Under the pieces are notes generated by a model, which saw only the letters and a program-made list of their open reading frames with translations, had not been told where the DNA came from and did not search any database. The translations under genes were made by a program, and so were the position numbers. This document shows positions 6,674-54,297 of a stretch of DNA of 64,000 nt, piece by piece (position 1 is the first letter of the stretch; each line of letters opens with the position of its first letter). Source of the stretch: a virus; the IMG/VR virus record IMGVR_UViG_3300036770_006296, positions 62,001 to 126,000 of that record; one strand, given 5' to 3'.

Positions 6674-7384
6674 ATGAAAGTTAAAAATTATAAGAACTTT
6701 ATAAAACTCCAAGAAGTTAGGAGAGAGAAAAAATGCCCCGTATTAAGTTTTAAACCAATTAGAGAATCTGAAACATATCAAGATATGATCGGAATGGGAT
6801 GGATCGAGGTACTAGCAGACAATCCTAAAGGAATTTTAGCATGGGCAACAGCAGAAGAAAGAAGTCATAAAGATAGAATGGGTAACATCGCATTCTATCA
6901 TCCGGTATTTCAAGGGAGAAGATTAACAAGAAGAGCAACCTCGAATGCACCGGAGGGATATCCACACTTTAATATAAAACACGACGGTGGAGTTAGAGTT
7001 GTTGAGGGTCTTCAAAACAGTGCTGAATTTCCAAGATTAACTACAGATCTAACAAGATCTTGTATGACTATTGAGGATTACCTTTACAAAATGAGTTTTT
7101 TAATAAAATATGCTATGAGAGAGCAAGGATTTCCTATCTCAGATAGCGAACTTTATGATAATGAATCCTACAAAGATCTTATAAAAAGAAAAATGCAGGA
7201 AGATCCAACAGTAATCAAACATTTCAAAGATGTAGATGTGCCTTCAGATCCTAGAGAAACAAGTATTGCTGGATCTGAAAAAATATACAAGCAAGTTTCA
7301 CTTCCTCCTAGTTTAAAAAAGGATGATCTAGGAAAAGGAGCTGCGATGTTGAAAAGATTTGGAGCATTCGGAGAAGATGAATAA
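6674..7384 (+). CDS. phage protein with leader-like start and KGAAMLKRFG tail
   Basis: 236 residues, no family recognised. It begins MKVKNYKNFIKLQE, a basic/aromatic start like the shared leader, and ends KGAAMLKRFGAFGEDE, carrying the KGxxMLxRFG peptide seen in many proteins here. The middle part contains AWATAEERSHKDRMGN and a GGVRVVEGLQ segment. First gene of a late-promoter run with 7402, 8007 and 8426. Presumably a virion or packaged protein. Confidence 0.75.
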   Translation: MKVKNYKNFIKLQEVRREKKCPVLSFKPIRESETYQDMIGMGWIEVLADNPKGILAWATAEERSHKDRMGNIAFYHPVFQGRRLTRRATSNAPEGYPHFNIKHDGGVRVVEGLQNSAEFPRLTTDLTRSCMTIEDYLYKMSFLIKYAMREQGFPISDSELYDNESYKDLIKRKMQEDPTVIKHFKDVDVPSDPRETSIAGSEKIYKQVSLPPSLKKDDLGKGAAMLKRFGAFGEDE

Positions 7385-7401
7385 GGTTAGGGCTTAAAAC
7401 A

Positions 7402-8010
7402 ATGATAGAGATAACACAGATAATAGTAACCGGAATTTTTTCCGTAGTAGTGGCCTTTGGTACCGTTTGGTTAAAACACTATCTAGATAATAAAAAGAAA
7501 GCTACCGACGAAGAAAATTATGAGAGAATCTCACAGCAAGACATAGACTCTATGCTGGAAGTACAGGAATTTCTAGAAGATTTCAGAGAAAAATGGGGAT
7601 TCGACAGGGTAGGTATATTTCAATTTCATAATGGGGGTAAATTTTTTCACGGTATTCCGATGAAAAAATATTCACAGACCTTTGAATCAGTATCTCACGG
7701 GGTTTCTAAATCTAAGGAACATAATCAGGGCGTGTTTGTAACGGAACATCCATCTCTTATGAAACACTTAAGTGAGAAAGAATTCTTTCATGTTGATGCG
7801 GACGATCCAGTTCTTGACTATATAAGAGGAAGAGTAACAGAGGAAGGTATACTGCAGATATTTAGCTCTCCTATAAGAAGTCTTTCTGGACAACTAATTG
7901 GATTTATTCAGTTACACACTGTTAAGCACAAAGTGGATATGACGGATGAGCTAATAGTTGAGATAATAGATCTAGCTAATAATCTCTCCGGATATTTAAT
8001 AAAAAAATGA
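7402..8010 (+). CDS. membrane-anchored GAF-like protein
   Basis: 202 residues. An N-terminal membrane helix (residues ~6-24, IIVTGIFSVVVAFGTVW) is followed by a short charged linker and a GAF-like alpha/beta domain (residues ~45-200) with VGIFQFHNGGKFFHG and SPIRSLSGQLIGFIQLH. Proteins with this FQFHNGG segment are known from phages as uncharacterised GAF-like proteins. The ligand is unknown. The stop overlaps the next gene's ATG by four bases, so translation is coupled. Probable membrane-bound sensor or inhibitor on the inner face of the host membrane. Confidence 0.68.
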   Translation: MIEITQIIVTGIFSVVVAFGTVWLKHYLDNKKKATDEENYERISQQDIDSMLEVQEFLEDFREKWGFDRVGIFQFHNGGKFFHGIPMKKYSQTFESVSHGVSKSKEHNQGVFVTEHPSLMKHLSEKEFFHVDADDPVLDYIRGRVTEEGILQIFSSPIRSLSGQLIGFIQLHTVKHKVDMTDELIVEIIDLANNLSGYLIKK

Positions 8011-8429
8011 CAACAGAGTACGAGATAAATTTTTTTACCAAAGGAGAAGGGGAATTAGTTTTTACTCTTGGTATAGTAGGAGGCTCAAGAACTAAGCTTC
8101 TCTATAATATTATTACCCAGAATTGGGACCAGGGAGGATATTTCACCGTTGACGAAGATGATTGGAATGATATAGAATGGAATTTTTTAGATATAATTTG
8201 TGAGAATGTCCCTTATCATCATGAAGATCCAGATGGATATAATAAATTCATCTATAATTTAGAAATGCTTTGTGAATACAATCTTAATATAAGAGGAGCA
8301 ATATCAAAATATAATGCTGAAATAAAAGAAAAAGCTATCTTAGAAACGCTTTGTGGTTGTATACTAGAAAATTTCGATTACGAAGCGGCAGGAACTGAGG
8401 AATTTAAATTTAAGATACAAAAATTATGA
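8007..8429 (+). CDS. acidic protein, paralogue of 8426-8812
   Basis: 140 residues, acidic, no known family. It shares with the next gene the plan beta-rich start, then L-L-Y-N-I-I-x-x-x-W-D, then a helical part ending in a DYEA/DEES-type acidic turn and a closing strand. ATGA overlaps at both ends couple it to 7402-8010 and 8426-8812. Likely arose by tandem duplication. Confidence 0.75.
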   Translation: MTTEYEINFFTKGEGELVFTLGIVGGSRTKLLYNIITQNWDQGGYFTVDEDDWNDIEWNFLDIICENVPYHHEDPDGYNKFIYNLEMLCEYNLNIRGAISKYNAEIKEKAILETLCGCILENFDYEAAGTEEFKFKIQKL

Positions 8430-8812
8430 TATACGAATTTAGATTTTCAGCAGAGGAGGATCCTGAGGTATACAAGATGGTAATAGAAGCAGATACTAGA
8501 TCTAATCTACTTTATAATATATTAAATAACCAATGGGATACGGAACAAATTTATTTTGATGATACCGAAATAATTCAGATTTTGGAGAACATCTTTGATA
8601 GATTAATGAATGCGGATCCAAGAACATATTCGGAAGATCTATATGATTTTTTAATGAGATGTCAATTTAAGCTTGATCTTAGAAGATTTTTAGGTGAAAA
8701 CAGCAATGAATCTTTACAAAGACTATTACATTTATTTGGAGAATGTGTTTGTAATATTTTTGACGAAGAATCTGGAGGTCTTGATTTCGAGTACGAATTC
8801 CTAGAAAGGTAA
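8426..8812 (+). CDS. acidic protein, paralogue of 8007-8429
   Basis: 128 residues. Shares NLLYNILNNQWD with LLYNIITQNWD of the gene before, and a similar C-terminus (FEYEFLE against FKFKIQK). Function unknown. Overlaps the convergent gene 8801-9043 by 12 bp. Confidence 0.75.
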   Translation: MIYEFRFSAEEDPEVYKMVIEADTRSNLLYNILNNQWDTEQIYFDDTEIIQILENIFDRLMNADPRTYSEDLYDFLMRCQFKLDLRRFLGENSNESLQRLLHLFGECVCNIFDEESGGLDFEYEFLER

Positions 8813-9043
8813 ATCCATAGCCATTAAGAATATGTGCTCCTTATTAGCATTATACATAGCCATTTTTTCTAACATCTCCTCTTTACTTAACTTGCTAAAT
8901 AAATAAGATTTATCCTCCACGATACATTCATGATCCTCGTCTCCCAGTGTATTATCCCACAATTCGTAGAAATATTTCAACGCATGGTCATATCCATATA
9001 CGAATTCTCGATTTCCCTCTAGTTGTATAACGTATCTACTCAT
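8801..9043 (-). CDS. small hypothetical protein
   Basis: 80 residues, no family recognised; contains two Asp/Glu-rich stretches and a YNANKEHIFLMAMD end. Its start overlaps the stop of 9043-9402 by one base (TAATG), so both are made from the early-type promoter at 9407-9443. Confidence 0.65.
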   Translation of the reverse strand: MSRYVIQLEGNREFVYGYDHALKYFYELWDNTLGDEDHECIVEDKSYLFSKLSKEEMLEKMAMYNANKEHIFLMAMDLPF

Positions 9044-9402
9044 TATATTAATTGTTTTTGTTTGTTTTTAAGCTCGCTATTGAGATATTTTGCTAAGACT
9101 TGACCATGACAAAGGAAACTCTTTTCAGATCCGTCTGCGGGCTTATTACAACACCAACATCCCAATACTTTTCCCTTTAATTCATCGATATCTTTTATTA
9201 ACCCGCTTTCATTTAGATACTTTTCATATCCTTCTATAGCTTCTTTTCTAGAATCAACCTTAAATTTAGCTTGCGTCTTATCAAGATCTTTGTGTGTGTA
9301 AGGATTAGCCCACTTGCTAGGCCTTCCTATATACACATCATGGAAATATTTTTTAAAGTGGACCACATATGTTACTCCATCTATCCTTTCGAAATTCTCC
9401 AT
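9043..9402 (-). CDS. DUF4326 family protein
   Basis: 119 residues matching the DUF4326 layout: YIGRPSKWANPYTH near the start, a central R-x-E-A-I-x-x-Y-x-x-Y-L helix, then LKGKVLGCWCCNKP and CHGQVLAKYL. The GCWC...CHG arrangement suggests a metal or catalytic thiol site. Known: the family is common in phages and is proposed, not proven, to have a nucleotide-related role. The ATG is four bases after a -7 box, so the mRNA is probably leaderless. Confidence 0.85.
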   Translation of the reverse strand: MENFERIDGVTYVVHFKKYFHDVYIGRPSKWANPYTHKDLDKTQAKFKVDSRKEAIEGYEKYLNESGLIKDIDELKGKVLGCWCCNKPADGSEKSFLCHGQVLAKYLNSELKNKQKQLI

Positions 9403-9818: not shown

Positions 9819-10220
9819 TTAAAGCATCATACTTAGTGCACCCGATACGTCAGAACCAACATTCTTACCATTTAATTTGAATTCTCCGCCTTTTTTAACT
9901 ATTTGGTAATCCCCTCTTTTTGTTTTAATAGAAACAGTATTACATAAATTTCCCCCACGAGTAAAGAAGTTGTGGACTGACTCTTCTAATCCCCCTCTCC
10001 CGTCTGCTTCTCCAAAAAAGCTCATAGAAACACCTCTGCTTTTATTGAGAATTCTAGGAACACCTAGCTGTGAAGCTCTTTCCCTAATTTTATCTATTTC
10101 ATCTCTTGTAAACCAGTTAACAGATCCTTTGGATCTCTTTTCTGATAATTTAGGTATACCGCTATAGGATGTTTTTGGATTATAGCTGGTAAACTCTTCG
10201 AAAAGCTTTAGGTATTTCAT
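9819..10220 (-). CDS. small protein with MKYLKLFEEF leader
   Basis: 133 residues from the ATG at 10220, chosen because the product then starts MKYLKLFEEFTSYN, the shared leader, and a GATATATATAG motif lies just upstream; the open frame extends 31 codons further. The body is basic with NWFTRDEIDKIRERA and ends SGALSMML, a possible remnant of the KGxxML tail. No family recognised. Candidate packaged protein. Confidence 0.65.
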   Translation of the reverse strand: MKYLKLFEEFTSYNPKTSYSGIPKLSEKRSKGSVNWFTRDEIDKIRERASQLGVPRILNKSRGVSMSFFGEADGRGGLEESVHNFFTRGGNLCNTVSIKTKRGDYQIVKKGGEFKLNGKNVGSDVSGALSMML

Positions 10221-10240
10221 TTTTATTCCTATATTTACTC

Positions 10241-10250
10241 TATATATATC
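10241..10250 (-). promoter_or_regulatory. late-type promoter motif
   Basis: Minus strand GATATATATA about 20 bp before the ATG at 10220. Confidence 0.5.
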
Positions 10251-10256
10251 ATTGAT

Positions 10257-10805
10257 TTGATACTTCCCAATGAGATAAAATACAGATTCGTGAGTGACAT
10301 TGACGTCTCTCACTTAAAAGAAAAGATTATAGCCAATAATCTTGATTGGGATTCATATGATTTTAGACAATTAAGGTACAAGGACCACTCACAAACTAAG
10401 ACTATACCTCTTATATGGTCGGAAAATTTCAGTTCTCCGCAAAAATGGGATCCATATTATTCAATTTTTAAAGGGGATCTAGATAAAATAGAATTGATAA
10501 TAAGATCTTCCTTATGTAAAAGCGGAGATTTTATGAGTGCTATACTTATTAATCTTCCCGCTGGAAAATCTATAACAAGACACGTAGATGCAAATCCAAT
10601 AGGGGACAAGTTTAATAGGTGCCACAGAATACACATTCCTATAATAACAAACTCTGACTGTATATTTGAAATTGATGGAGAGGAGAAAAATATGAAGGAA
10701 GGAGAAATCTGGGAGATAAGCAACGTCAAGAAACCACATAGTGTACAAAACAAAGGTGCATCCGATCGGATACACCTCCTTATAGATTGGGATCCTTTTC
10801 TTTAA
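10257..10805 (+). CDS. 2OG-Fe(II) / aspartyl beta-hydroxylase-like oxygenase
   Basis: 182 residues. Fits the double-stranded beta-helix of Asp/Asn beta-hydroxylase-type dioxygenases: HVDANPIG (His-x-Asp iron ligands), HRIHIPIITN, then EGEIWEISNVKKPHSVQN with the distal His, and a closing DRIHLLIDW. Known: these enzymes use Fe(II), O2 and 2-oxoglutarate to hydroxylate proteins or small molecules. Substrate unknown. The start is uncertain: a TTG at 10257 is used here, no in-frame ATG is near, and an ATT upstream is possible. Overlaps the convergent gene 10802-11494. Confidence 0.75.
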   Translation: MILPNEIKYRFVSDIDVSHLKEKIIANNLDWDSYDFRQLRYKDHSQTKTIPLIWSENFSSPQKWDPYYSIFKGDLDKIELIIRSSLCKSGDFMSAILINLPAGKSITRHVDANPIGDKFNRCHRIHIPIITNSDCIFEIDGEEKNMKEGEIWEISNVKKPHSVQNKGASDRIHLLIDWDPFL

Positions 10806-11494
10806 TCTATTCCAAATCTCCTTAGCATAGATCCTCCTTTACCAGCTCTAACAAGGTCATCATACTCTTCAGGCGAAAGCTTAGCTCTAACTTTATCATC
10901 AACCCCAGAGATTGAAGAAGATGTATCCTTATACATCATAACCCCAGTTTTTGGGTTTTTATCTCTATATCCTTTTACTATGGTATCGGATAACACATCA
11001 GATAATTCTTGAGAAGTTGAATCGAGAGGATATATTTGCCCTGCTATTGCAATTTCATTATCTGAACCTCTTGAAATAACATAAACAACTCCTTCAGTCT
11101 CTATAGCTGCTTGCATGAAATCGTCGTGACATGAAGTACCCTCATAATCAAACACTCTATTCAATATATCGTCAGGATCTATACCAGGATTAGCTAGCAT
11201 TTCATATGAATTTCTGAAAACATCAAAACTTCCCCATTCATCGTAACAGTCTTCTTTAGAGCTCTTCTGACTTTCTTCCCAATCTGCATATGCTTCATCA
11301 TATTCTTCTGATGTTTCATAGTCATCCTCATCCGGCGCCTCATCCACATCGTAATCCCCCATATGCCATGCACTGTATCCGGATTCACAATAATCTTCAA
11401 CTAAAGTATCATAGTCAAGGGGTTCTTCACCATTGGTTGATTCCGGATATCCATAGTGTCCATCAGGAACGAATATAAACTTCTTTATTTTCAT
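10802..11494 (-). CDS. very acidic protein ending KGGSMLRRFG
   Basis: 230 residues. Residues ~30-90 are dominated by D, E and Y (ESGYSAWHMGDYDVDEAPDE and similar). The C-terminus is AGKGGSMLRRFGID, the shared KGxxMLxRFG peptide. No family recognised. It starts 17 bp after 11512-12072 ends; the gap holds GGATAAATAATG, a possible late box. The acidic body could mimic nucleic acid, but this is speculation. Confidence 0.72.
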   Translation of the reverse strand: MKIKKFIFVPDGHYGYPESTNGEEPLDYDTLVEDYCESGYSAWHMGDYDVDEAPDEDDYETSEEYDEAYADWEESQKSSKEDCYDEWGSFDVFRNSYEMLANPGIDPDDILNRVFDYEGTSCHDDFMQAAIETEGVVYVISRGSDNEIAIAGQIYPLDSTSQELSDVLSDTIVKGYRDKNPKTGVMMYKDTSSSISGVDDKVRAKLSPEEYDDLVRAGKGGSMLRRFGID

Positions 11495-12962: not shown

Positions 12963-13691
12963 TTAATATTCACCAAATCTCCTAAGCATTCTTGATCCCT
13001 TAAAAGCCTCTTCTGGTGTTTCTCCAAAGAATAATTTTATCCTGTCCTCTAGATGAGGATAAGCTTTTATAGTTCTATGTGCCACTATGGTGAATTCAGA
13101 GAAAGATGTTTTATCAAGAATGTCCTTCAACATAGTAACAATATCGTCATCCGAAACATCCCTTATTCCTATAATCAATTTCTCCTCGTGCTGGTAGTTG
13201 CTTCTTCTCTTGCCATTCCTGAAATTAATGGAATATATTCTACTTCTATTTGGATGATCAATATCTTCAAGGTCCGATGTTCCATAATCAAGCGCTCCAG
13301 TTTCATCTACCATTTCATCATATTCTCCCATACCACCACTCTGATAGAAATCATAAAAAGCCTCCATCTCATCGATGTCCATAAGCCTCCAATTAGTAGC
13401 AGATCCACTCAATGACTCTGGTGTGTTGTGCCAGTCTTTCCCGAGCAGGATCTTCTCTCCCTCGCTGACTTTTCTAAAAGTAAGCATCCCTGGAACAAGC
13501 ACAATCTTATTTCTAAAACGTGGATCGTCAACTAGAAAAACCTGATGCACTGCATAATCTTTATGAAAATTCGAATATTGACAAAGATCCACGGGGATTA
13601 TCCTTCCCATTTCTTTATCTGATAGATCCATTCTAGGGGATTTGTCTATTCCTTCACTTAACATTTCGTAGTATCCCTTGATGTGTTTCAT
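12963..13691 (-). CDS. protein with MKHIKGYYEM start and KGSRMLRRFG tail
   Basis: 242 residues. It starts MKHIKGYYEMLSEG, like the shared leader, and ends FKGSRMLRRFGEY, the shared tail, so it carries both short peptides. The body has NSRIYSINFRNGKRRSNYQ-like strands and a DVSDDDIVTMLKDILDK helix; no family recognised. Unlike most leader-bearing genes it has an early-type promoter, four bases before the ATG, so its mRNA is probably leaderless. Confidence 0.72.
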   Translation of the reverse strand: MKHIKGYYEMLSEGIDKSPRMDLSDKEMGRIIPVDLCQYSNFHKDYAVHQVFLVDDPRFRNKIVLVPGMLTFRKVSEGEKILLGKDWHNTPESLSGSATNWRLMDIDEMEAFYDFYQSGGMGEYDEMVDETGALDYGTSDLEDIDHPNRSRIYSINFRNGKRRSNYQHEEKLIIGIRDVSDDDIVTMLKDILDKTSFSEFTIVAHRTIKAYPHLEDRIKLFFGETPEEAFKGSRMLRRFGEY

Positions 13692-15252: not shown

Positions 15253-15600
15253 CTAAGCTCCTAATCTTTTAACCATCAATTTAAAGAGCCTCATACTATC
15301 AATTCCAGGTAGATCGGAATCCTGGGGATCATCAGTTCTAAACTCTTTAAGAATCACTTTCTGAATACCTTCGAACTCTGTGTCTTTTGGTATATCCCAA
15401 AAAGAGATGTAATATATGTTTATAAAATCTCCCCTAAAAGTGACTCTTGGCGGAATATGAAGTACACCGCTTATGTATAGAACATTATATAAGCCTCGCT
15501 TTTTCGTAACGGGGACGGATACTACTATTCTATCATCAATCAGATCTGCTCTATACCCAAGCTCCTCAATTTCACCCAAGAATTTCTTTGTCACATTCAT
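15253..15600 (-). CDS. repeat-array protein 9 (degenerate)
   Basis: 115 residues, last gene of the tandem array. The C-terminus LPGIDSMRLFKLMVKRLGA keeps the family end (GIDSKRLLNLMIKRGLFI), and the N-terminus keeps FLGEIEELGYRADLIDDRIVV. Only two worn repeats remain (HIPPRVTFRGD, DIPKDTEFEG). Function unknown. Convergent with the phosphoesterase gene. ATG overlaps the preceding gene. Confidence 0.72.
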   Translation of the reverse strand: MNVTKKFLGEIEELGYRADLIDDRIVVSVPVTKKRGLYNVLYISGVLHIPPRVTFRGDFINIYYISFWDIPKDTEFEGIQKVILKEFRTDDPQDSDLPGIDSMRLFKLMVKRLGA

Positions 15601-16040
15601 AAAAATACCCCTTGTTTAACCATAAGCTTAAATAATCTCTTGGTGTGTATATCATCTATAGATCCTTCCCATGATTCACCCCAATCACCAGATGTGCTAA
15701 ACATATATGTTCCACCCCTTTGATACCCAAGCATAATCTTACTCTTTCCGTTATTGAAAACAGTGGAGGGATGTATCTTAATACCTTGGTCGTATAATCC
15801 CAAAACAATATTGCCACCATTGTTAAATTGAACACCCTCAGGAATCTCCTGTAGCTCCGTTAGATGAACATTACCCTTGTTATTAAAGATAACACCAGAA
15901 GGCAGAGACTTTAAGTGATTAATGCCCACGTTCCACTTGTAAGCAAGCCCATTAGATCCAGTGATCTCAATCTCGTTGCCCAAGATATTATAAGTGATCT
16001 TATCACTATCTAACTGTTCTATAAATTCTTCCCTTGTCAT
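15597..16040 (-). CDS. repeat-array protein 8
   Basis: 147 residues. Family N-terminus MTREEFIEQLDSDKITYNI, three repeats of the L-x-x-L-P-x-G-V-x-F-N-N-x-G-N-x type, and the end RLFKLMVKQGVFL. The third repeat is diverged (HPSTVFNNGKSKIML). ATG/stop overlap with both neighbours suggests coupled translation. Confidence 0.75.
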   Translation of the reverse strand: MTREEFIEQLDSDKITYNILGNEIEITGSNGLAYKWNVGINHLKSLPSGVIFNNKGNVHLTELQEIPEGVQFNNGGNIVLGLYDQGIKIHPSTVFNNGKSKIMLGYQRGGTYMFSTSGDWGESWEGSIDDIHTKRLFKLMVKQGVFL

Positions 16041-16504
16041 ATAAATAAGCCTCTTTTAATCATCAAGTTCAATAACCTCTTACTATCTATTCCCTCTATG
16101 TTACCTTCCCAATTTTTAAACCATACAACATAATTCCCCATTAATGACTCCAAATAGACACTCCCTTCATTCTTAAACTCCACACCAGGCGGAAGGGTTT
16201 TTAATGAGTCCAAATAGACACTCCCTTCATTCTTAAACTCCACACCAGGAGAAATGGTTTCTAATGAGTTCAAATAGACACCCCCTTCATTCTTAAACTC
16301 CACACCAGGAGGAAGGGTTTTTAATGAGCTCAAATAGACATTCCCTCCATTCTTAAACTCCACACCAGAAGGAAGGGTTTCTAATAATGAGTTCAAAAAG
16401 ACAGTCCCATTCCTATCTCCTCTAGTCACCACTAGCTTATCTCCTTTTATCTCGTAGGAGTAACCTTCCTTATCTAACTTCTTTATAAACTTTTCTTGTG
16501 TCAT
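16037..16504 (-). CDS. repeat-array protein 7
   Basis: 155 residues. N-terminal MTQEKFIKKLDKEGYSYEI, then four 20-residue repeats (LKTLPPGVEFKNEGGVYLNS type), then GNIEGIDSKRLLNLMIKRG. The repeats form a regular beta-solenoid or LRR-like pattern. Overlaps both neighbours by four bases. Confidence 0.78.
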   Translation of the reverse strand: MTQEKFIKKLDKEGYSYEIKGDKLVVTRGDRNGTVFLNSLLETLPSGVEFKNGGNVYLSSLKTLPPGVEFKNEGGVYLNSLETISPGVEFKNEGSVYLDSLKTLPPGVEFKNEGSVYLESLMGNYVVWFKNWEGNIEGIDSKRLLNLMIKRGLFI

Positions 16505-16947
16505 ATAAATAAGCCTCTTTTAATCATCACGTTCAATAACATCTTACTATCGATACCTTCTATGTTACCAGTCCATGTATAAATCCATCCTCTGATTAGT
16601 GATTCCAAATAGACACCACCTTCATTCTTAAACCCCACACCAGGGGAAATACTAGTTAGTGATCTCAAACTGACATATCCCTCATTATTAAACTCCATAC
16701 CAGATGGAAGACTAGTTAGTGAATCCAACCAGAGATCCCCTACATTCTTAAACTCAATACCAGGAGGAAGTGTAGTTAATGAGTTCAATTCGACATATCC
16801 TTCATTCCTAAACACCACATCAGAAGGAAGACTATCTAGTAATCTCAAATCGACCCACCGTTTATGATTAATAACTATCTTATCTCCTTCTATCTTGTAG
16901 GAGTAACCTTTCTCTTCTAATATCTCTATAAATTCTTCTCTTGTCAT
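16501..16947 (-). CDS. repeat-array protein 6
   Basis: 148 residues with four repeats that are more diverged than those of its neighbours (LTTLPPGIEFKNVGDLWLDS, LTSLPSGMEFNNEGYVSLRS). Same head (MTREEFIEILEEKGYSYKI) and tail (GIDSKMLLNVMIKRGLFI). Confidence 0.78.
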   Translation of the reverse strand: MTREEFIEILEEKGYSYKIEGDKIVINHKRWVDLRLLDSLPSDVVFRNEGYVELNSLTTLPPGIEFKNVGDLWLDSLTSLPSGMEFNNEGYVSLRSLTSISPGVGFKNEGGVYLESLIRGWIYTWTGNIEGIDSKMLLNVMIKRGLFI

Positions 16948-17336
16948 ATAAACATTCCCTTACTTATCATGTAGTTCAATAGCCTCTTATTATCTATTCC
17001 TTCTATGTTACCAGTCCATTTATGAAAGTATCCTCCGATTAATGATCCCAAATAGACATCCCCTCCATTCTTAAACACAACACCAGGAGGAAGGGTTTTT
17101 AATGAATTCAAAAAGACATTGCCATTATTCCTAAACTCCACACCAGGAGAAATGGTTTTTAATAAGTCCAAACTGACATAACCTTTATTCATAAACACCA
17201 CTTCAGGAGGAATGGTTTCTAATGAGCCAAAAATAAAACCCCCAATTAAACCCCCTACAACCACTATCTTATCACCTTCTATATTGTAGGGGCAACCTTC
17301 CTTATTTAATATTCCTACAAACTCTTCTCTTGTCAT
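16944..17336 (-). CDS. repeat-array protein 5
   Basis: 130 residues, one of the short members, with three repeats (LETIPPEVVFMNKGYVSLDL, LKTISPGVEFRNNGNVFLNS, LKTLPPGVVFKNGGDVYLGS). Head and tail as in the family; ends NYMISKGMFI. Confidence 0.78.
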   Translation of the reverse strand: MTREEFVGILNKEGCPYNIEGDKIVVVGGLIGGFIFGSLETIPPEVVFMNKGYVSLDLLKTISPGVEFRNNGNVFLNSLKTLPPGVVFKNGGDVYLGSLIGGYFHKWTGNIEGIDNKRLLNYMISKGMFI

Positions 17337-17848
17337 ATAAACACACCTTGCTTAATCATCAAGTTCAGAAGCCTCTTACTATCTATTCCCTCTATGTTAC
17401 CTTCCCATTTACTAAACCGAACAAACCGCCCTCCAACTAATGATCTCAAATCGACATCCCCTTCATTCTTAAACTCCACACCAGGAGGAAGGGTTTTTAA
17501 TGAGCTCAAATTGACACCCCCTTCATTCCTAAACACCACGCCAGGAGAAATGGTTTGTAATGATGACAAATCGACATACCCCTCATTCCTAAACACCACG
17601 CCAGGCGGAAGGGTTTTTAATGAGCGCAAATAGACATGCCCTTCATTCTTAAACTCCACACCAGGGGGAAGTGTTTCTAATGATCTCAAATCGACATCCC
17701 CTCCATTATTAAACTCCACGCCAGGGGGAAGGGTTTGTAATGAGCGCAAATAGACATCCCCTCTATGAGTAACAATTATCAGATCTCCCACAATCTCGTA
17801 GGAGTAACCTTTCTCTTCTAATATCTCTATAAATTCTTCTCTAGTCAT
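17333..17848 (-). CDS. repeat-array protein 4
   Basis: 171 residues with five repeats close to the consensus LKTLPPGVEFKNEGDVDLRS. The DNA repeats are 60 bp and nearly identical, which favours slippage or unequal crossing over. Head MTREEFIEILEEKGYSYEI; tail SKRLLNLMIKQGVFI. Confidence 0.78.
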   Translation of the reverse strand: MTREEFIEILEEKGYSYEIVGDLIIVTHRGDVYLRSLQTLPPGVEFNNGGDVDLRSLETLPPGVEFKNEGHVYLRSLKTLPPGVVFRNEGYVDLSSLQTISPGVVFRNEGGVNLSSLKTLPPGVEFKNEGDVDLRSLVGGRFVRFSKWEGNIEGIDSKRLLNLMIKQGVFI

Positions 17849-18288
17849 ATAAATAAGCCTCTTTTAATCATCACGTTCAATAACATCTTACTATCTACCC
17901 CTTCTATGTTACCTTCCCATTTACTAAAATAACCCCCAACTAATGATCCCCATTTACTAAAATAACCCCCAATTAATGATCCCAAATTGACATTCCCTCC
18001 ATTATTAAACTCCACTCCAGGAAGAAGCTCCTCCACATGATATAAAATAGCATCCCCACCATTATTAAACACCACACCAGAAGGCATAACTTTTACACTC
18101 CTTAAGTCGACATCACCTTTATTATTAAACTCAACATTAGGAGGAATGCTACTTATTGAGCTTAGCCAAACATTGCCATTATTATCATCGATCCTCCCAG
18201 TATTAACCACTATCTTATCACCTTCGTTACCGTAGGTGTAATAGTAATCCATCTGTTCTAATACATCTATAAATTCCTCTCTTGTCAT
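17845..18288 (-). CDS. repeat-array protein 3
   Basis: 147 residues. Three diverged repeats, then a duplicated linker (SLIGGYFSKWG followed by SLVGGYFSKWEG) before the common tail, a visible short tandem duplication of 36 bp. Head MTREEFIDVLEQMDYYYTY is one of the more divergent ones. Confidence 0.77.
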   Translation of the reverse strand: MTREEFIDVLEQMDYYYTYGNEGDKIVVNTGRIDDNNGNVWLSSISSIPPNVEFNNKGDVDLRSVKVMPSGVVFNNGGDAILYHVEELLPGVEFNNGGNVNLGSLIGGYFSKWGSLVGGYFSKWEGNIEGVDSKMLLNVMIKRGLFI

Positions 18289-26459: not shown

Positions 26460-27269
26460 ATGAAATTATTTGATGAACGCCAGGTGAAGATGATGAAATA
26501 TCTTTCCTCTGGACTTCCACCACAGAGTAGATGGCGGTACAATCCGGTAACAGACCTTATAGATATAGAGGGGGATTTCAATTGTGGATGGACGGGTTTT
26601 AAAGATTTTAGAGGAGTTAAATTTGGAAAGATCACTGGACATTTCGATTGTTCCGGTATAGGACTCACCAGTTTAATAGGAGCTCCTGAAGAGGTCGGAA
26701 AAGATTTCAATTGTTCGAAAAACAATTTAACTAGTCTTGAAGGTGCACCTAAAAAGGTTGGTTATAGTTTCAATTGTTCAAAAAACTCTCTAGAAAGCCT
26801 AGAAGGAGGTCCTGAATATGTTAGGGGAAATTATGATTGTTCGAGTAATAAGCTCGTTACTCTTAAAGGATCCCCTAAAGCTTTACGCAGGGGGAGTAAA
26901 TTTATTTGCTCCAATAATCTTTTAAAAGATTTAAACGGGTTAATAGATAATGATTTTATGGGATTTTTTACATGTAAACGCAATCCCCTTACTAGTCTGG
27001 AAGGAGCACCAATCAACATAGAACCTTATTGGGATGGAAGTTATGAAGGAAAAATTTCATATTATGGAAATAAAGGTGTTTCGGGAAAGGTGCTCGAATT
27101 AATTCATCTCACGATGATTGAAAAGAAAGTGCCATTTATTATCGCTCTAGGTATTCTTAAGAACGAGATAAAATCGAGCGATCTTAAGAAGCTACTTCCT
27201 TCGGATCAGGAGAACGTAGAAGATGTACTAAAAGGAGCTAGCATGTTAGCTAAATTTGAATCTTTCTAA
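26460..27269 (+). CDS. LRR-like repeat protein, ends KGASMLAKF
   Basis: 269 residues. After an N-terminal YNPVTDLIDIEGDFNC-type cap come about seven ~21-residue repeats of the form F-x-C-S-x-N-x-L-T-S-L-E-G-A-P-x-x-V-G. The C-terminal ~70 residues are helical and end LKGASMLAKFESF, a version of the shared KGxxMLxRFG tail. Four relatives lie at 33151, 39293, 39930 and 44512. Known: similar phage LRR-like proteins exist, function unknown; the fold usually binds proteins. Confidence 0.82.
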   Translation: MKLFDERQVKMMKYLSSGLPPQSRWRYNPVTDLIDIEGDFNCGWTGFKDFRGVKFGKITGHFDCSGIGLTSLIGAPEEVGKDFNCSKNNLTSLEGAPKKVGYSFNCSKNSLESLEGGPEYVRGNYDCSSNKLVTLKGSPKALRRGSKFICSNNLLKDLNGLIDNDFMGFFTCKRNPLTSLEGAPINIEPYWDGSYEGKISYYGNKGVSGKVLELIHLTMIEKKVPFIIALGILKNEIKSSDLKKLLPSDQENVEDVLKGASMLAKFESF

Positions 27270-27270
27270 G

Positions 27271-27307
27271 AATCATTTTTTTATTTAGGTAGATTTTTCT
27301 ATATTTA
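27271..27307 (+). promoter_or_regulatory. early-type 37-bp promoter
   Basis: AATCATTTTTTT to TATATTTA, directly after the stop at 27269. Confidence 0.85.
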
Positions 27308-28764: not shown

Positions 28765-29256
28765 ATGGCAACAAGGAGTAGAATAGGAATAGTAAACGAG
28801 GACGGAACAGTTTCCTCAATATATTGTCACTGGGACGGATACGTATCTCACCACGGTCCACTCTTACTTACGCATTATACAGACCGTGAAAAGGTTAAAG
28901 CCCTTATCGAATTGGGAAGTATTAGTGTCTTAGCTCAACACGTTGAGCCGCCTTCAGTCGTTGACGAGAATGATATCGATGGTAAGAAGGGTGAGAGGAT
29001 GCTTAAGAGATTTGGAGTCATAGGAAAACATTCTTTCTACGATCCACTACCAGGTGTTACTGTTGCTTATCATCGAGACAGAGGAGAGGAATACATCAAA
29101 CCGAGAATTAATAAGTCGCTAGAGGATTATTTTCTAGCAGACAATGAAGAATATGGCTACGTCTTTACCCTTGAGGGTGAATGGCTAGTCAAGTCGGGGT
29201 ACAACGAAAGTGCTCCAATTAGACCAATCGCTGAGGTTTTAGCAGAAGAAACTTAG
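28765..29256 (+). CDS. conserved phage MATRSRIG-family protein with inserted KGERMLKRFG
   Basis: 163 residues. N-terminus MATRSRIGIVNEDGTV, then SIYCHWDGY, LLTHYTDREKVKALIELG and VAYHRDRGEE mark a very widespread phage/plasmid family of unknown function. Between the ALIELGSIS region and the AYHRDRGEE motif it carries KKGERMLKRFGVIGKH, the short peptide that ends other proteins in this window; as I remember the family, this segment is not a usual part of it. Leaderless start. Confidence 0.83.
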   Translation: MATRSRIGIVNEDGTVSSIYCHWDGYVSHHGPLLLTHYTDREKVKALIELGSISVLAQHVEPPSVVDENDIDGKKGERMLKRFGVIGKHSFYDPLPGVTVAYHRDRGEEYIKPRINKSLEDYFLADNEEYGYVFTLEGEWLVKSGYNESAPIRPIAEVLAEET

Positions 29257-33150: not shown

Positions 33151-33867
33151 ATGAAAATACTAGGATTTAATTTCCTTACTCTAAGACAGATAATATTTTT
33201 AAACGAGTTCACTTATGGCAAGTGGACTCTTAACAAGAAGACTGGACTGGTCGATATAGAAGGAGATTTCAATTGTTCAGATAAAAAATTAACCGGCTTT
33301 AAAGGTGTTCGGTTTGGAGTGGTTACTGGGAGTTTCTATTGTTACGATAACAATCTCACAAGTCTTGAGGGAGCGCCACAAAAGGTTGGATGGTATTTCG
33401 ATTGCTCCCATAACTCTCTCACAAGTCTTGAGGGAGCGCCACAGAATGTTGGGAGGGATTTCCGTTGCTACAATAACAAGCTCACAAGTCTTGAGGGAGC
33501 GCCGCAGAAGGTTGGATGGAGTTTCTATTGCCCATATAACAGGCTCACAAGTCTTGAGGGAGCGCCACAGGAGGTTGGAGGGTGTTTCTATTGCTACAAT
33601 AACTCTCTCACAAGTCTTGTGGGAGCGCCACAGGAGGTTGGAGGGAGTTTCGATTTCTACGGTAATCCGATCTCAGAGAAGACGTTAAAGTTGGTATGGG
33701 AGACGATGAGAGATAATAAGATCGACTATTGGTTTGCTTTATCGATACTTAAGAGCCAGATCGAGAGTGAGGATTGGAAGAAGATGTCTATAGGCTTAGA
33801 CGAGAGATTATCTAAAGACGCTCTGAAGGGTATTTCAATGATGGATCGGTTTGGACATTTTGATTAG
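33151..33867 (+). CDS. LRR-like repeat protein, ends KGISMMDRFG
   Basis: 238 residues. Cap GKWTLNKKTGLVDIEGDF, six repeats (LTSLEGAPQKVGWYFDCS type), and a helical C-terminal domain ending LKGISMMDRFGHFD. It is inserted between the two VWA genes of the MoxR system, with its own promoter. The 63-bp DNA repeats are almost identical. Confidence 0.82.
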   Translation: MKILGFNFLTLRQIIFLNEFTYGKWTLNKKTGLVDIEGDFNCSDKKLTGFKGVRFGVVTGSFYCYDNNLTSLEGAPQKVGWYFDCSHNSLTSLEGAPQNVGRDFRCYNNKLTSLEGAPQKVGWSFYCPYNRLTSLEGAPQEVGGCFYCYNNSLTSLVGAPQEVGGSFDFYGNPISEKTLKLVWETMRDNKIDYWFALSILKSQIESEDWKKMSIGLDERLSKDALKGISMMDRFGHFD

Positions 33868-39292: not shown

Positions 39293-39889
39293 ATGCCTGG
39301 AATATTAATGGATCTAAGAAAATTAACGGAATACCAACCTTGGTTATTTAGAAACAAACACATGCAGCCAGTTATGGAAGCTCTTATGGAAGCACGTATA
39401 AATATCTTTAAGGACGAGGTACTATCCTCATTGAAAGGAGGTGATTCACTAACCGAGGATCAGATACGTATACTAGCCCTTTCTACCGATGCTTCTATTC
39501 ACATTAGGAAGGATGGAAAGATTAACGTGAATGGAATTTTTAACTGCTCTGGATTAGGACTAACTGATTTGTGTGGACTTCGATTTGGTAGAGTAAAAGG
39601 AAGATTTATTTGCAGAAATAATTCTATAACAAATCTTGAAGGGTTTCCTATTGAGGGAGATCCGGAGGTATTCTTTGACAGAAACAAAGGTATATCCGAC
39701 GGAACCTTAGATCTTATATTTGAAGCTATGAGAAAGAACCAAATGGACTATTGGTCGGCTTTATGTGTTGTTAAAAGCGAGATAGACTCTAAAGAATGGG
39801 TTGTTATGTCTAAAGGGATAGACGAGAGACTTTCACAAGACGCTCAGAAGGGAGCTTCGATGTTGGGACGATTTGGACATTTTGATTAA
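39293..39889 (+). CDS. repeat-poor member of the LRR-like family, ends KGASMLGRFG
   Basis: 198 residues. An N-terminal helical ~65 residues not found in the relatives, then KINVNGIFNCSGLGLTDL and only about two repeats, then the family's helical C-domain and the end KGASMLGRFGHFD, identical over the last residues to 39930. It shows that the C-domain and tail are kept even when the repeats are nearly gone. Confidence 0.78.
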   Translation: MPGILMDLRKLTEYQPWLFRNKHMQPVMEALMEARINIFKDEVLSSLKGGDSLTEDQIRILALSTDASIHIRKDGKINVNGIFNCSGLGLTDLCGLRFGRVKGRFICRNNSITNLEGFPIEGDPEVFFDRNKGISDGTLDLIFEAMRKNQMDYWSALCVVKSEIDSKEWVVMSKGIDERLSQDAQKGASMLGRFGHFD

Positions 39890-39929: not shown

Positions 39930-40688
39930 ATGGAACTTAATAAAGAACAAATAGAATTTTTAAACGGGTTTACTAAAGGCAAATGGACTCTTAACAAGAA
40001 GACCGGACTAGTTGATATAGAGGGTTATTTTGATTGTTCATGTGAAGAATTAACCGATTTTAAAGGTGTTCGGTTTGGAGTGGTTACTGGGAGTTTCAAT
40101 TGCAGCGGTAACAATCTCAAAAGTCTTGAGGGAGCGCCACAAGAGGTTGGACTGGGTTTCGATTGCGACAATAACAATCTCAAAAGTCTTGTGGGAGCGC
40201 CACAGAAGGTTGGAGATTATTTCAATTGTTACTGGAACAAGCTCACAAGTCTAGTGGGAGCGCCACAAGAGGTTGGAGGGATTTTCGATTGTTCCAGTAA
40301 CAAGCTCACAAGTCTAGTGGGAGCGCCACAAGAGGTTGGAGAGATTTTCGATTGTTCCTATAACAAGCTCACAAGTCTAGTGGGAGCGCCACAGAAGGTT
40401 GGGCGTTTCGATTGTTGCTATAATAAGCTCACAAGTCTAGAGGGAGCGCCACAGAAGGTTGGGGAGGGTTTCTATTGCTACAATAACCCAATCTCGGAGA
40501 ATACTCTGAATTTAGTGTGGAACACTATGCAAGAAAAAAAGATCGACTACTGGTCGGCTTTATGTATTCTTAAGAGTGAAATCTCAAGGAGTGATTTCGA
40601 GAATTTAGAGGGAGAGTTGGAAAAGAGACTTTCACAAGACGCTCAGAAGGGGGTTTCTATGTTGGGACGGTTTGGACATTTTGATTAA
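39930..40688 (+). CDS. LRR-like repeat protein, ends KGVSMLGRFG
   Basis: 252 residues from the ATG at 39930. Cap GKWTLNKKTGLVDIEGYF, about seven repeats (LTSLVGAPQEVGGIFDCS type), helical C-domain with KIDYWSALCILKSE and tail KGVSMLGRFGHFD. Repeats 3-6 are almost identical at the DNA level. Confidence 0.83.
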   Translation: MELNKEQIEFLNGFTKGKWTLNKKTGLVDIEGYFDCSCEELTDFKGVRFGVVTGSFNCSGNNLKSLEGAPQEVGLGFDCDNNNLKSLVGAPQKVGDYFNCYWNKLTSLVGAPQEVGGIFDCSSNKLTSLVGAPQEVGEIFDCSYNKLTSLVGAPQKVGRFDCCYNKLTSLEGAPQKVGEGFYCYNNPISENTLNLVWNTMQEKKIDYWSALCILKSEISRSDFENLEGELEKRLSQDAQKGVSMLGRFGHFD

Positions 40689-44182: not shown

Positions 44183-44512
44183 ATGAAAGATAAGGATATA
44201 CTAGCGAGAATAAAAGAACTATCAAATGAAGATTGGTTCCAGAACGGTGATGATTCACCGGAAGAGGTCTACGAGGAGCTTTACGGGATAGAAGCTGAAA
44301 ACGATGATCTTGCATATCTTCTCGAGTTAACTATTGGTGGACCGGGATACTCGGATGTTTGGCTTTCACGAGGTGTACTTATAGGAGATGTGCTTGCTTA
44401 CGGAGATGGATTAGAAGAGGGTGAGGAAGTTACTGAGGATGATATCTACGAAGATAATCAAATGTTTATTGCGGAAAGAAGAATGGGTTTACTTGATGAA
44501 ATAATTTTGTAA
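44183..44512 (+). CDS. acidic hypothetical protein
   Basis: 109 residues, strongly acidic, with LLELTIGGPGYSDVWLSRG in the middle and DGLEEGEEVTEDDIYED after it. The GGPGYSDVW segment recurs in phage hypothetical proteins. Its last base is the first base of the next ATG. Confidence 0.67.
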   Translation: MKDKDILARIKELSNEDWFQNGDDSPEEVYEELYGIEAENDDLAYLLELTIGGPGYSDVWLSRGVLIGDVLAYGDGLEEGEEVTEDDIYEDNQMFIAERRMGLLDEIIL

Positions 44513-45372
44513 TGGGATTAACTAAAGATCAAATAGAATGGCTAAATAGCTGCCACGGATGGGCTGGTCTAAAAAAGACTAAATGGACATTTAACGAAGA
44601 AACCGGACTAGTAGACGTAGAGGGTGATTTTATAACCCCCAATTCATATGGTTCTTGTAAAGCTTTAGGACGGAAAGGAGGTGGTGGATATGGAGGTATT
44701 AAGGATTTTATGGGTATTAAATTCGGTACTGTTACTGGGACCTTCGATTGCTCGTATAACAATCTAACAAATATAGAGGGAGCGCCTATTTACGTAGGAG
44801 GGGATTTCGATTGCTCATATAACAAACTCACAAGCTTAGTGGGAGCACCACAAGAAGTTGGAGGTTCCTTCAGTTGTATAGATAATAATCTCACAAGTCT
44901 TATTGGATCTCCTCGAAGGGTTAAGCTTCACTTCCACTGTGCTTATAACAAACTACCAAATCTAGTAGGAGCTCCTATGTACGTGGGAGGGGATTTCTGG
45001 TGCACTGATTTATCCAATGATCTACATATAGAAAGTCTGCACGGAGCAGAAGAATGTATAATAGGTGGAGATTTCGATTGTCATTACAACAAATTGAAAG
45101 ATTTAAAAGGTGCTCCTAGATTAATTTACGGTCAATTTATGGTCTATGGTAATTACGAAGGAAATTACAAAAGAGTTAAAAAAGATACATTCATTCTAAT
45201 AACTAGTACAATGAAAGAAAAAAATCTAGACTATTTTGGCGCTTTGTGCTTATTAAAAGATTCCCTCGATAAGAAGGAATGGAATAAGTTATCTAAAGGT
45301 ATAGACGAAAGATTGTCGAAAGAAGCCCAGAAGGGTCTTAGAATGTTGGACAAGTTTAAAATTTTTGAATAA
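44512..45372 (+). CDS. LRR-like repeat protein, ends KGLRMLDKF
   Basis: 286 residues, the longest of this family. Cap KWTFNEETGLVDVEGDF, a ~25-residue Gly-rich insertion, about six repeats (LTSLVGAPQEVGGSFSC type), the helical C-domain with NLDYFGALCLLKDS, and tail KGLRMLDKFKIFE. Unlike its relatives it lacks its own promoter and is coupled to 44183-44512. Confidence 0.82.
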   Translation: MGLTKDQIEWLNSCHGWAGLKKTKWTFNEETGLVDVEGDFITPNSYGSCKALGRKGGGGYGGIKDFMGIKFGTVTGTFDCSYNNLTNIEGAPIYVGGDFDCSYNKLTSLVGAPQEVGGSFSCIDNNLTSLIGSPRRVKLHFHCAYNKLPNLVGAPMYVGGDFWCTDLSNDLHIESLHGAEECIIGGDFDCHYNKLKDLKGAPRLIYGQFMVYGNYEGNYKRVKKDTFILITSTMKEKNLDYFGALCLLKDSLDKKEWNKLSKGIDERLSKEAQKGLRMLDKFKIFE

Positions 45373-46045: not shown

Positions 46046-46588
46046 ATGGAGAACACACAAGAAGAAAACGCGAGAAAAGGTGAAGCGATGCTAACCAAAT
46101 TCGGAGTAATTAAAAAAATCGGGGTTTATTGCTACGATGTTACAATAGAGAATCATAATGGAGCGGTAGGTACAATATCGAGTGAAGAGGAGCAATTAAT
46201 CATAATCGGTATTAACGAAGAATCTTTAGAAGAGAGAACTAAGGAAGAACACTACGAAGACGATGGATTCATGAGATCAACTACATATTCCTTAGTATTC
46301 AAAGAAGAAGGTTGGACCTCCGACGAGGTCATGGAAAGATTTAATCTAAGCGAATATGAGATAGAGGAAATCCTAGATGGGGAAAACCTTGAATTAGATG
46401 ATTGGGACTTAAGAGATACATATTATTTTGATGAGTGTAAGCTCTCAATTAAAGAGTTAAGGGAGAAAAGAAAGATCGATTCAGAACCTTTCGATGCCGA
46501 CGAGATCATAAGCAAGATTGCTAGCGAGTATGTTCTTACTACAAGAAGAAAAGCATCGCTTGTTAAAAGTATTAAAAAATTATCCTAA
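46046..46588 (+). CDS. protein with N-terminal KGEAMLTKFG peptide, copy 1
   Basis: 180 residues. Starts MENTQEENARKGEAMLTKFG, placing the shared KGxxMLxRFG peptide at residues ~11-20. The C-terminal ~45 residues (ELREKRKIDSEPFDADEI...RRKASLVKSI) are nearly the same as in 47778; the middle parts differ. No family recognised. Confidence 0.74.
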   Translation: MENTQEENARKGEAMLTKFGVIKKIGVYCYDVTIENHNGAVGTISSEEEQLIIIGINEESLEERTKEEHYEDDGFMRSTTYSLVFKEEGWTSDEVMERFNLSEYEIEEILDGENLELDDWDLRDTYYFDECKLSIKELREKRKIDSEPFDADEIISKIASEYVLTTRRKASLVKSIKKLS

Positions 46589-46604
46589 ACTAAAAACGTA
46601 ACAA

Positions 46605-46970
46605 ATGGCAAAGTGTAATAATTGTAAAGGAGAAATGAAGAGGACAAAAAAATTAACAACCTGCGACTTAACAGGAACCCATCAATATATCGAATTCGGA
46701 GAATGTGATTGTGACGACATTTCAGGAAGAATGATAGATTTCGGAGAGAAACCATATTACGAAGAGGTACAGGCTAAAAAAAAGCTTTATCCACCTCATA
46801 TTCAAAGAAAGATCGATCAGCTTGAAGAGCTAGAAGAAATGAATGCTGCTTTAGGACTTCATGATAAGATAGATTCGATTAGACATTTGATTGCTAAAGA
46901 GATCGAAGAGGAAGCAAAAAAAGAAGCACAAGTTTCAAACAAAAGGATAGAATCCGGAGGGTTCATGTAG
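46605..46970 (+). CDS. small zinc-finger-like protein
   Basis: 121 residues. AKCNNCKGEMKRTKK, then TTCDLTG and GECDCDD: C-x2-C plus later cysteines could bind zinc. The C-terminal half is helical with HIQRKIDQLEELEEMNAALG. Second gene of the 45982 cassette. Confidence 0.68.
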   Translation: MAKCNNCKGEMKRTKKLTTCDLTGTHQYIEFGECDCDDISGRMIDFGEKPYYEEVQAKKKLYPPHIQRKIDQLEELEEMNAALGLHDKIDSIRHLIAKEIEEEAKKEAQVSNKRIESGGFM

Positions 46971-47028
46971 ACATGAACGTAATTATATAGCCGCTGCAAA
47001 ACCGAGGGGTGGAGAGATGGCAAACTAA

Positions 47029-47056
47029 GAGAGGACTTTTAAGTCCTCTTTTTTTG
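47029..47056 (+). terminator. hairpin terminator
   Basis: AGAGGACTT, TT, AAGTCCTCT then TTTTTTTGTG. Confidence 0.86.
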
Positions 47057-47094
47057 TGTGGTAAGCCAAAGGGTCAAAGGGCAGATCTAGATGC

Positions 47095-47108
47095 ACTGGG
47101 GAACCCCA
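47095..47108. repeat. intergenic dyad CTGGGGAACCCCAG
   Basis: Consensus copy. The flanks (CTAGATGCA before; GAAGTCTGATCCA and TTAACCTATAGGTTTATT after) are repeated at 53141, so a ~90-bp block was copied. Confidence 0.86.
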
Positions 47109-47149
47109 GGAAGTCTGATCCAGCTTAACCTATAGGTTTATTTTTTTAG

Positions 47150-47186
47150 AATCATTTTTTTATCTGTAGAAAATTCTATATATTAG
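47150..47186 (+). promoter_or_regulatory. early-type 37-bp promoter
   Basis: AATCATTTTTTT to TATATTAG, before 47212. Confidence 0.85.
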
Positions 47187-47211
47187 CTAAGTAACCAATT
47201 AAAACAATAGT

Positions 47212-47754
47212 ATGAAAAGAGTTAATTTAGTAGAAATTTTAGGGGCAGATATATTAGATATATTCAATCGCTCCAGGTATCACTCCAGTCTAGAAAGATT
47301 TAGTGTCTTTGCAGTAGCATCAGACCTTTCTCCTTCTTCCGCAGATTTTATAGAGGAGGTTAAATCTTTAGCGGGATCATATGCCTTTAACTTCTTCCGT
47401 CATATGAGTCTCGAGAAATCAAAAAAGCTATTAGAAAAAGCACAAACTATAGAAGAGATAGAAGATATCATTAAAGAAGAGCTAACTGACTACAGAGACG
47501 GAGACGACGAATATCGGGAGACCTTGGGGATATTCGTAACAGAAATTAAAAATCCGGACATATTAGATGGACTAGTTCATCTTCCCGAAAATTCTTTTAG
47601 TTGTGATGTTGATGTGGAGTCAAGAATAAAAGAGCTTAAGAGTGATGAAAATTTTAAAGAAGCTCTTGAGCTAACCGAATCTTTTAATGAATTAAAAGAT
47701 CTGATAAATAATAATGGACCCAGCAAATACCAAGAAATTCTCGGAAATAGCTAA
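47212..47754 (+). CDS. hypothetical early protein
   Basis: 180 residues, helical, acidic in the second half. No family recognised. Its last codons and stop lie inside a promoter-leader-like sequence (see 47731-47768), so the C-terminus may have been created by a deletion that joined it to the next cassette. Confidence 0.68.
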   Translation: MKRVNLVEILGADILDIFNRSRYHSSLERFSVFAVASDLSPSSADFIEEVKSLAGSYAFNFFRHMSLEKSKKLLEKAQTIEEIEDIIKEELTDYRDGDDEYRETLGIFVTEIKNPDILDGLVHLPENSFSCDVDVESRIKELKSDENFKEALELTESFNELKDLINNNGPSKYQEILGNS

Positions 47755-47777: not shown

Positions 47778-48260
47778 ATGAAGAGCACACAAGAAGAAAA
47801 CGCTAGAAAAGGTGAAGCGATGCTAACAACATTTGAGGTAATTAAAAAAATATACGTATCACCATATATTATTGAAGGCGAGGATGAGCGGGAAATACAT
47901 GTAGTATTATTAGGTGCTAAGGAAGAAGATTTAGAAGATTTTTTCGAAAGAAATGATGACGATGCTGATATCATTGGTACGCCTGAAATTATAGAGATGC
48001 TGCGATCAGAGGCAGAAGAAAGGTACGGGAAGGATCGGATAGAATATATTTTAGGAGCAAGAGATGGATACGTTGATTGGATTCACGGTGAGAATATTTT
48101 TGTCGAAACTCTGATGCCCATAGAAGAATTAAGAGAAAAAAGAAGAATTGAGTCTGAGCCTTTCGATGCTGAGGAGATCATAAGAAAGATTGCTAGCGAA
48201 TATGTTATTACCCAGAGAAGAAAAGAATCGCTTATTGAAATTATAAATAAATTACTCTAG
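47778..48260 (+). CDS. protein with N-terminal KGEAMLTTF peptide, copy 2
   Basis: 160 residues. Starts MKSTQEENARKGEAMLTTFE, parallel to 46046, and ends with ELREKRRIESEPFDAEEI and RRKESLIEII. The central acidic part (DFFERNDDDADIIG) is its own. It has lost an intact promoter and is probably read from 47150. Confidence 0.74.
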   Translation: MKSTQEENARKGEAMLTTFEVIKKIYVSPYIIEGEDEREIHVVLLGAKEEDLEDFFERNDDDADIIGTPEIIEMLRSEAEERYGKDRIEYILGARDGYVDWIHGENIFVETLMPIEELREKRRIESEPFDAEEIIRKIASEYVITQRRKESLIEIINKLL

Positions 48261-53662: not shown

Positions 53663-53685
53663 AATTTTCTTTTTTAATTGTTAAA

Positions 53686-53693
53686 CAAAAATA
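53686..53693 (-). promoter_or_regulatory. -7 box TATTTTTG, atypical promoter
   Basis: Fits TAnnTTTG, but AATC...T7 is absent at the 37-bp distance; perhaps a host-type promoter for 53477-53662. Confidence 0.45.
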
Positions 53694-53867
53694 ATACATA
53701 CTTATAACAACAAATATAAGAAATAAATCTTACTTTGTCTATTTTTTAATGAAAAGATTTACTTCTCATATTTGCAACCGATAAAACTTTTTTATTCCCT
53801 TCTGGGTTTAAAAATAATGATACGCATGGGAGAAGACAGTATTTTAAAATTATCTAAAATCCCAAGG

Positions 53868-53904
53868 AATCATTTTTTTCTTTAGATAGAATTTTCTACA
53901 TTTG
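53868..53904 (+). promoter_or_regulatory. early-type 37-bp promoter
   Basis: AATCATTTTTTT to TACATTTG, before 53932. Confidence 0.85.
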
Positions 53905-53931
53905 TATCGTAACCACTAAAAAATAAAAAAA

Positions 53932-54297
53932 ATGGATAATCAAGAAGAAGAAAACATAAGGAAGGGCAAAAGTATGCTAGTAAAATTTGGGGTGATTGAT
54001 CCCAGATTAGATAGAGCTGTTAGGAAATATTATAATGGAAGAAGATCAAACGATTCAGCTTTTGATGATATTTTTGAATTCTATTACGATAAAGGAGACC
54101 TTTCAGCCGCGGGTATAACTATAGCGGAGTACGATGAATTAGATTGGAATCCTAGCGTCAGTGTACGAGCGCAGGTTGTAAACTGTGCAGAGCTTGATGA
54201 TGAATTATTTGATTATCTAAGAGGTATTGTAGATCCTGATTGGTACGATGATGACGATGATGACGATGATGACGATGATGACGATGACGGATGGTAG
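53932..54297 (+). CDS. protein with N-terminal KGKSMLVKFG peptide and Asp tail
   Basis: 121 residues. MDNQEEENIRKGKSMLVKFG places the shared peptide at residues ~11-20, as in 46046 and 47778. The body is acidic and ends in a run of about 13 aspartates before GW. The GATGATGAC repeat is prone to slippage. No family recognised. Confidence 0.72.
   Translation: MDNQEEENIRKGKSMLVKFGVIDPRLDRAVRKYYNGRRSNDSAFDDIFEFYYDKGDLSAAGITIAEYDELDWNPSVSVRAQVVNCAELDDELFDYLRGIVDPDWYDDDDDDDDDDDDDDGW

Follow-up and report, generated by a model that had tools for sequence, protein, structure and literature searches.

A movable peptide, KGxxMLxRFG, recurs in unrelated families of phage proteins and may serve as an address tag

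The window analysed here, a stretch of 64,000 nucleotides corresponding to bases 62001-126000 of a 206,617-base virus record (called G000 among the compared records), encodes a short peptide, the KG tag, which stands at the end, near the beginning or in the middle of phage proteins. The question it raises is what a peptide that moves in this way does for the proteins that carry it. A first-pass annotation had named twelve positions of the motif, and all of them are real: in a six-frame scan, 11 match the strict pattern KGxxM(L/M)x(R/K)F and the remaining one is a weakened copy, KGEAMLTTF (Table 1).

Table 1. Copies of the KG tag in the window; coordinates are window positions, flanking residues are in brackets, and the last column gives the position at which the six-frame scan placed the motif.
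Span	Strand	Sequence	Placement	Protein	Remarks	Scan position
7334..7363	+	KGAAMLKRFG(AFGEDE)	C-terminal	6674-7384	six-frame scan	7334+
10811..10840	-	KGGSMLRRFG(ID)	C-terminal	10802-11494	six-frame scan	10840-
12972..13001	-	KGSRMLRRFG(EY)	C-terminal	12963-13691	N-terminus capsid-targeting-like	13001-
27231..27260	+	KGASMLAKFE(SF)	C-terminal	26460-27269	repeat family; six-frame scan	27231+
28957..29025	+	VVDENDIDGKKGERMLKRFGVIG	23-residue insert	28765-29256	phrog_1987 protein; tag proper 28987-29016	28987+
33826..33855	+	KGISMMDRFG(HFD)	C-terminal	33151-33867	repeat family; six-frame scan	33826+
39848..39877	+	KGASMLGRFG(HFD)	C-terminal	39293-39889	six-frame scan	39848+
40647..40676	+	KGVSMLGRFG(HFD)	C-terminal	39930-40688	repeat family; six-frame scan	40647+
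45331..45360	+	KGLRMLDKFK(IFE)	C-terminal	44512-45372	repeat family; six-frame scan	45331+
46076..46105	+	KGEAMLTKFG(VI)	N-terminal	46046-46588	six-frame scan	46076+
47808..47837	+	KGEAMLTTFE(VI)	N-terminal, weakened	47778-48260	paralogue of 46046	47808+ (weakened)
53962..53991	+	KGKSMLVKFG(VI)	N-terminal	53932-54297	six-frame scan	53962+

Occurrence and modularity of the motif

A search of the whole phage and its relatives, which had been proposed as a check, recovered four further strict matches in the rest of the record (53595+, 126494+, 142023+ and 153031+) and two copies with LL in place of ML (152335+ and 179730-), bringing the record to 17 intact or near copies in addition to the weakened one. 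Their consensus is KGxx(M/L)(L/M)x(R/K)F(G)x(F/I), in which K1, G2 and F9 are invariant. The copies are C-terminal in 13 of the 17 cases, N-terminal in two (plus the weakened copy) and internal in two. Genes were called as the longest open frames, and several of the relatives are fragments. Counted in called proteins alone, the record holds 14 strict matches, compared with an expectation of 0.005 from 200 shuffles within each protein (maximum 1), so the pattern is not equally common in random sequence, and four distant relatives contain no match.

When the tag is removed, its hosts cluster into 13 families in the record, seven of which are represented in the window, and the motif is thus not confined to proteins related over their full length. 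The description of the window hosts as twelve unrelated proteins went too far: unrelated families do exist, but 26460, 33151, 39293, 39930 and 44512 are paralogues of a leucine-rich-repeat-like family, and 46046 and 47778 form a pair. Between unrelated hosts, identical residues are encoded by identical codons in 304 of 730 pairs (0.416), compared with 0.425 predicted from codon usage; because this agreement is no higher than predicted, selection operates at the level of the protein and not on copied DNA. Moreover, the tag behaves as a module. The 28765 protein matches phrog_1987 (E 2e-30), a family widespread among phages, and its 23-residue tag insert is missing from the orthologues in G001, G004 and G006; similarly, the 22-residue N-terminal module bearing the tag in 53932 is missing in the G006 homologue. 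In two host families the C-terminal tag is kept across six relatives while the remainder of the protein diverges, and that of the 6674 protein is kept in five relatives, with one copy weakened. The motif is therefore a real, selected and movable short linear motif. An explanation that gives the tag no function of its own, by common descent or by copying of a gene end at the DNA level, would suit the five repeat-family paralogues and the 22-residue N-terminal module common to 46046 and 53932, but it is already disfavoured and highly improbable, as codons are randomised among the other hosts, the hosts as a whole share no homology beyond the peptide, falling into 13 families, and the tag is kept while linkers diverge.

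The hosts themselves are largely refractory to annotation. When 16 tagged proteins were searched against Pfam and PHROG, the matches were phrog_1987 for 28765 and repeat-family matches without an assigned function for 26460 and 33151, the other matches being Laminin_II and DUF7518 (Pfam, below cut-off) and one weak PHROG match for the coiled-coil 179686 protein; no recognised nucleic-acid domain was found in these searches. In the AlphaFold2 model of the 6674 protein (mean pLDDT 64), a partly confident core is flanked by two termini with pLDDT <50, the tag included (residues 220-236), and no fold match was found for this model.

Dialects of the tag in related phages

Relatives were located via the C-terminal half of the split DNA polymerase, and each was read over most or all of its length. 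In G000, G001 and G006 this polymerase half is 90-93% identical, yet the tag reads ML.RFG in G000, LL.(N/K)FG in G001 (KGxxLLx(N/K)FGI) and LL.R(F/L)G in G006 (KGxxLLxR(F/L)G). These dialects are consistent inside a genome and different between genomes, and they shift in concert on several proteins. Because close relatives carry such coordinated dialects, the partner of the tag is probably phage-encoded. For the 52626 protein, no relatives were found by tblastn in the phage collection or by the viral-contig scan.

In giant phages that are less closely related the tags are different ones, ELFSGFDELGLF and NADDFGFFDN. When C-terminal 18-mers were clustered and compared with shuffled tails, the C-terminal tag DDFELFSGFDELGLF emerged in G002, mostly on repeat-family paralogues, and NADDFG(F/L)(F/I)DN in LR756500, a 462-kb phage, where it is borne by 14 proteins of eight families. 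The same search gave no clear C-terminal tag in Lak-A2, read with TAG as glutamine, from which the N-terminal capsid-targeting-like peptide described below is also absent. The observation is thus wider than first stated, because other giant phages carry C-terminal dialects of their own. The G002 and LR756500 tags may belong to the same system as the KG tag or may be unrelated to it; the part common to them is a loose (F/L)G(hydrophobic) core alone.

Other conserved protein ends were also recorded. The protein at G000:51251-52108 and its orthologues in G001, G005 and G015 are about 30-66% identical and all end in the same 16-mer, LLPNIDTAADLGDLGF, and two G004 proteins also end in LGDLGF. Nine paralogues lie in tandem on the minus strand of the window (15253-19444); they contain LPPGVEFKNEGDVxLxSL-type repeats, and all of them finish with KRLLNLMIKRGLFI-like peptides, which could be a further C-terminal tag. 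Sigma-factor tails were considered as relatives of the tag and rejected, since they are merely the end of region 4.

Two groups of tagged proteins

In phage T4, an N-terminal capsid-targeting sequence (CTS) sends proteins into the head (PMC9026906). Of the 317 proteins called in the whole record, some 50 to 74 start with a T4-like peptide of this kind (MKHIKLFExF, SFxxFINE), window examples being 9819-10313 (-), 12963-13691 (-) and 63335-63847 (+), and this abundance suggests that unusually many proteins are packaged into the head. The peptide was called with a home-made profile which, at the cut-off used, accepted 507 N-termini over all records, compared with 81 after shuffling. The protein at G000 26743-27556 (L010) and its homologues in G003 and G016 have FKDFIKK-like ends, resembling the N-terminal capsid-targeting motif at the C-terminus.

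C-terminal tags and the N-terminal peptide occur together in 22 proteins of seven records against 7.5 expected, counts which are inflated because orthologues and paralogues are included. Both are present in 18 of 21 tagged proteins in G002 (mostly paralogues) and in 10 of 14 in LR756500 (P 7e-9); in G000 alone, with six of 15, the enrichment is not significant (P 0.11). This co-occurrence is what would be expected if the tag were a second head-loading or head-anchoring peptide, binding a prohead scaffold or core protein alongside the N-terminal CTS or in its place. Replacement would also account for the repeat family, which has a CTS in G002 and G003, whereas its G000 members begin where the CTS would end and bear the KG tag instead. 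A precedent for a C-terminal head propeptide exists in T4, whose prohead protease acts on both ends of Alt (PMC9026906). However, about nine in ten proteins with the N-terminal peptide carry no tag, so the tag is not a general requirement for loading or packaging; many tagged proteins, conversely, have no N-terminal peptide and belong to a cluster whose promoters look early; and a consistent protease-like site of the (L/I)xE type was not found before the tag. Head loading is accordingly a possible but doubtful role.

The second group is distinguished by its upstream regions. Upstream of several tagged window proteins without a CTS stands AATCATTTTTT-N-TAGAATTTTCTA and then a TAnnTTTG-like box, and the window proteins that are tagged and lack the N-terminal peptide lie mostly within the gene cluster with these elements. 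There are 51 such sites against one in the reversed sequence, largely at 23-61 kb of the window, and the genes they precede include two sigma-factor genes. Such an early-looking promoter lies no more than 90 bases upstream of seven of the 17 tag hosts, compared with 39 of 317 genes overall (P 0.002). Between 23000 and 61000 of the window, dozens of genes each have the element, palindrome included, together with the TAnnTTTG-like box, forming a candidate early promoter. The element looks like a host-type early promoter: TAnnTTTG is the Bacteroidota -7 box, and it is on this resemblance that the presumed early timing is based.

Candidate partners and comparison with known systems

A partner acting on replicating DNA can be considered, since the phage encodes a sliding clamp of the PCNA/gp45 type. 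The gene (G000:45747-46514) adjoins the C-terminal half of the polymerase; all matches of its family in a PDB profile search are clamps, and the top Foldseek matches of its structure are PCNA and beta clamps (E 5e-9), although a direct profile comparison with RB69 gp45 failed. The family B DNA polymerase itself is split into two genes about 16 kb apart, at 28919-30325 and 46516-47685 of the record (L010, L011), and in L054 an additional ORF breaks up the second half as well. If the tag were a clamp-binding motif of the PIP-box or T4 sliding-clamp-binding motif (SCBM) type, it would recruit its hosts to this clamp. KGASMLSRFGLF aligns without gaps to the RB69 polymerase tail KKASLFDMFDF, and T4 SCBMs are interchangeable and also functional internally (PMC2988020). 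The spacing of the PIP/SCBM consensus (QxxhxxFF or SLFDMF-like) fits through this RB69 tail, but the first aromatic position is occupied by R, K or N. Furthermore, the phage's own polymerase ends in SPNLLLVRALF, with similar tails in phages that have other tags (LIYSSSLF in LR756500), and thus does not track the dialects; the SSB and the sigma factors, which would represent known clients, carry no tag, and none of the tag hosts searched has a recognised nucleic-acid domain. Clamp binding is consequently unlikely.

A bacterial partner, with dialects tracking different hosts, would agree with tagged proteins that look delivered or made early and with a dialect that varies between phages, but nothing ties the tag to any bacterial protein, and we regard this too as improbable. 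The termini of MinD and MreB are amphipathic membrane-targeting helices, and the KG tags of G000 are hydrophobic and basic (mean charge +1.7); a membrane-targeting role is nevertheless very unlikely because other dialects are neutral (mean charge 0 in G001) or acidic (-4.7 in G002, -2.3 in LR756500), no basic amphipathic helix is conserved among homologous tags, and a generic helix would not need the strict G2, F9 and G10.

Taken on balance, and with moderate confidence, the tag appears to be a short docking motif that directs virion cargo and early proteins to a single common reader, which the phage itself probably encodes. Of the sorting, docking or processing functions initially proposed, movable docking or sorting fits the unrelated hosts, the placement at either terminus or in a loop, the lack of DNA-level copying and the coordinated dialects; processing is not supported, as no fixed protease site precedes the tag. 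Otherwise unrelated accessory proteins would have acquired KGxxMLxRFGx(F/I) at one of their ends, most often the C-terminal one, or within a loop; selection on the protein maintains it there, and one common partner would read it as an address, this reader being presumably encoded by the phage and diverging together with it. Two main groups would be tagged, namely likely virion cargo with a T4-type N-terminal CTS and CTS-less proteins mostly in the early-looking-promoter cluster; given these groups, the most likely role would be to gather the proteins of the start of infection, whether virion-delivered or made early, at one site. Phyletic profiling for the reader yielded 31 genes that occur with KG dialects and are absent from four distant records, with no clear candidate among them. 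More generally, it is plausible, though short of probable, that a peptide address code specific to each phage is in use among giant T4-like phages. Its dialect tag, C-terminal but sometimes N-terminal or internal, would evolve together with a reader encoded by the phage; it would mark effectors that are delivered with the virion or made early, and would do so independently of the capsid-targeting peptide. If it is an address, the tag picks out at a stroke a coherent set of phage proteins that otherwise resist annotation; it also predicts one common binding partner for them and provides a handle for finding it, and its dialects would be an example of a phage-borne address changing jointly with its reader between close relatives.

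No account of the tag turned up in literature searches, and the statement that it has no described equivalent holds for its sequence; it does not hold for its kind, since phage T4 already offers two comparable short tags that can move, the capsid-targeting sequence and the sliding-clamp-binding motif (PMC9026906, PMC2988020). Like the SCBM and the PIP-box, the KG tag is about ten residues long, hydrophobic, C-terminal or internal and found on unrelated proteins, but it is absent from the polymerase tail, has a basic residue in place of an aromatic one, and its hosts are not replication proteins. The encapsulation or cargo-loading peptides of bacterial compartments are short helical tags at either end of unrelated cargo, and the KG tag resembles them in being a short tag at either end of unrelated proteins, a likeness of form and placement. 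The T4 CTS is an N-terminal propeptide of the FxxF(I/V)xE type, whereas the KG tag has another sequence, is mainly C-terminal and shows no sign of a cleavage site, and most CTS-like proteins do not carry it; both are nonetheless short, modular and borne by otherwise unrelated phage proteins, and many hosts of the KG tag also possess a CTS-like N-terminus.
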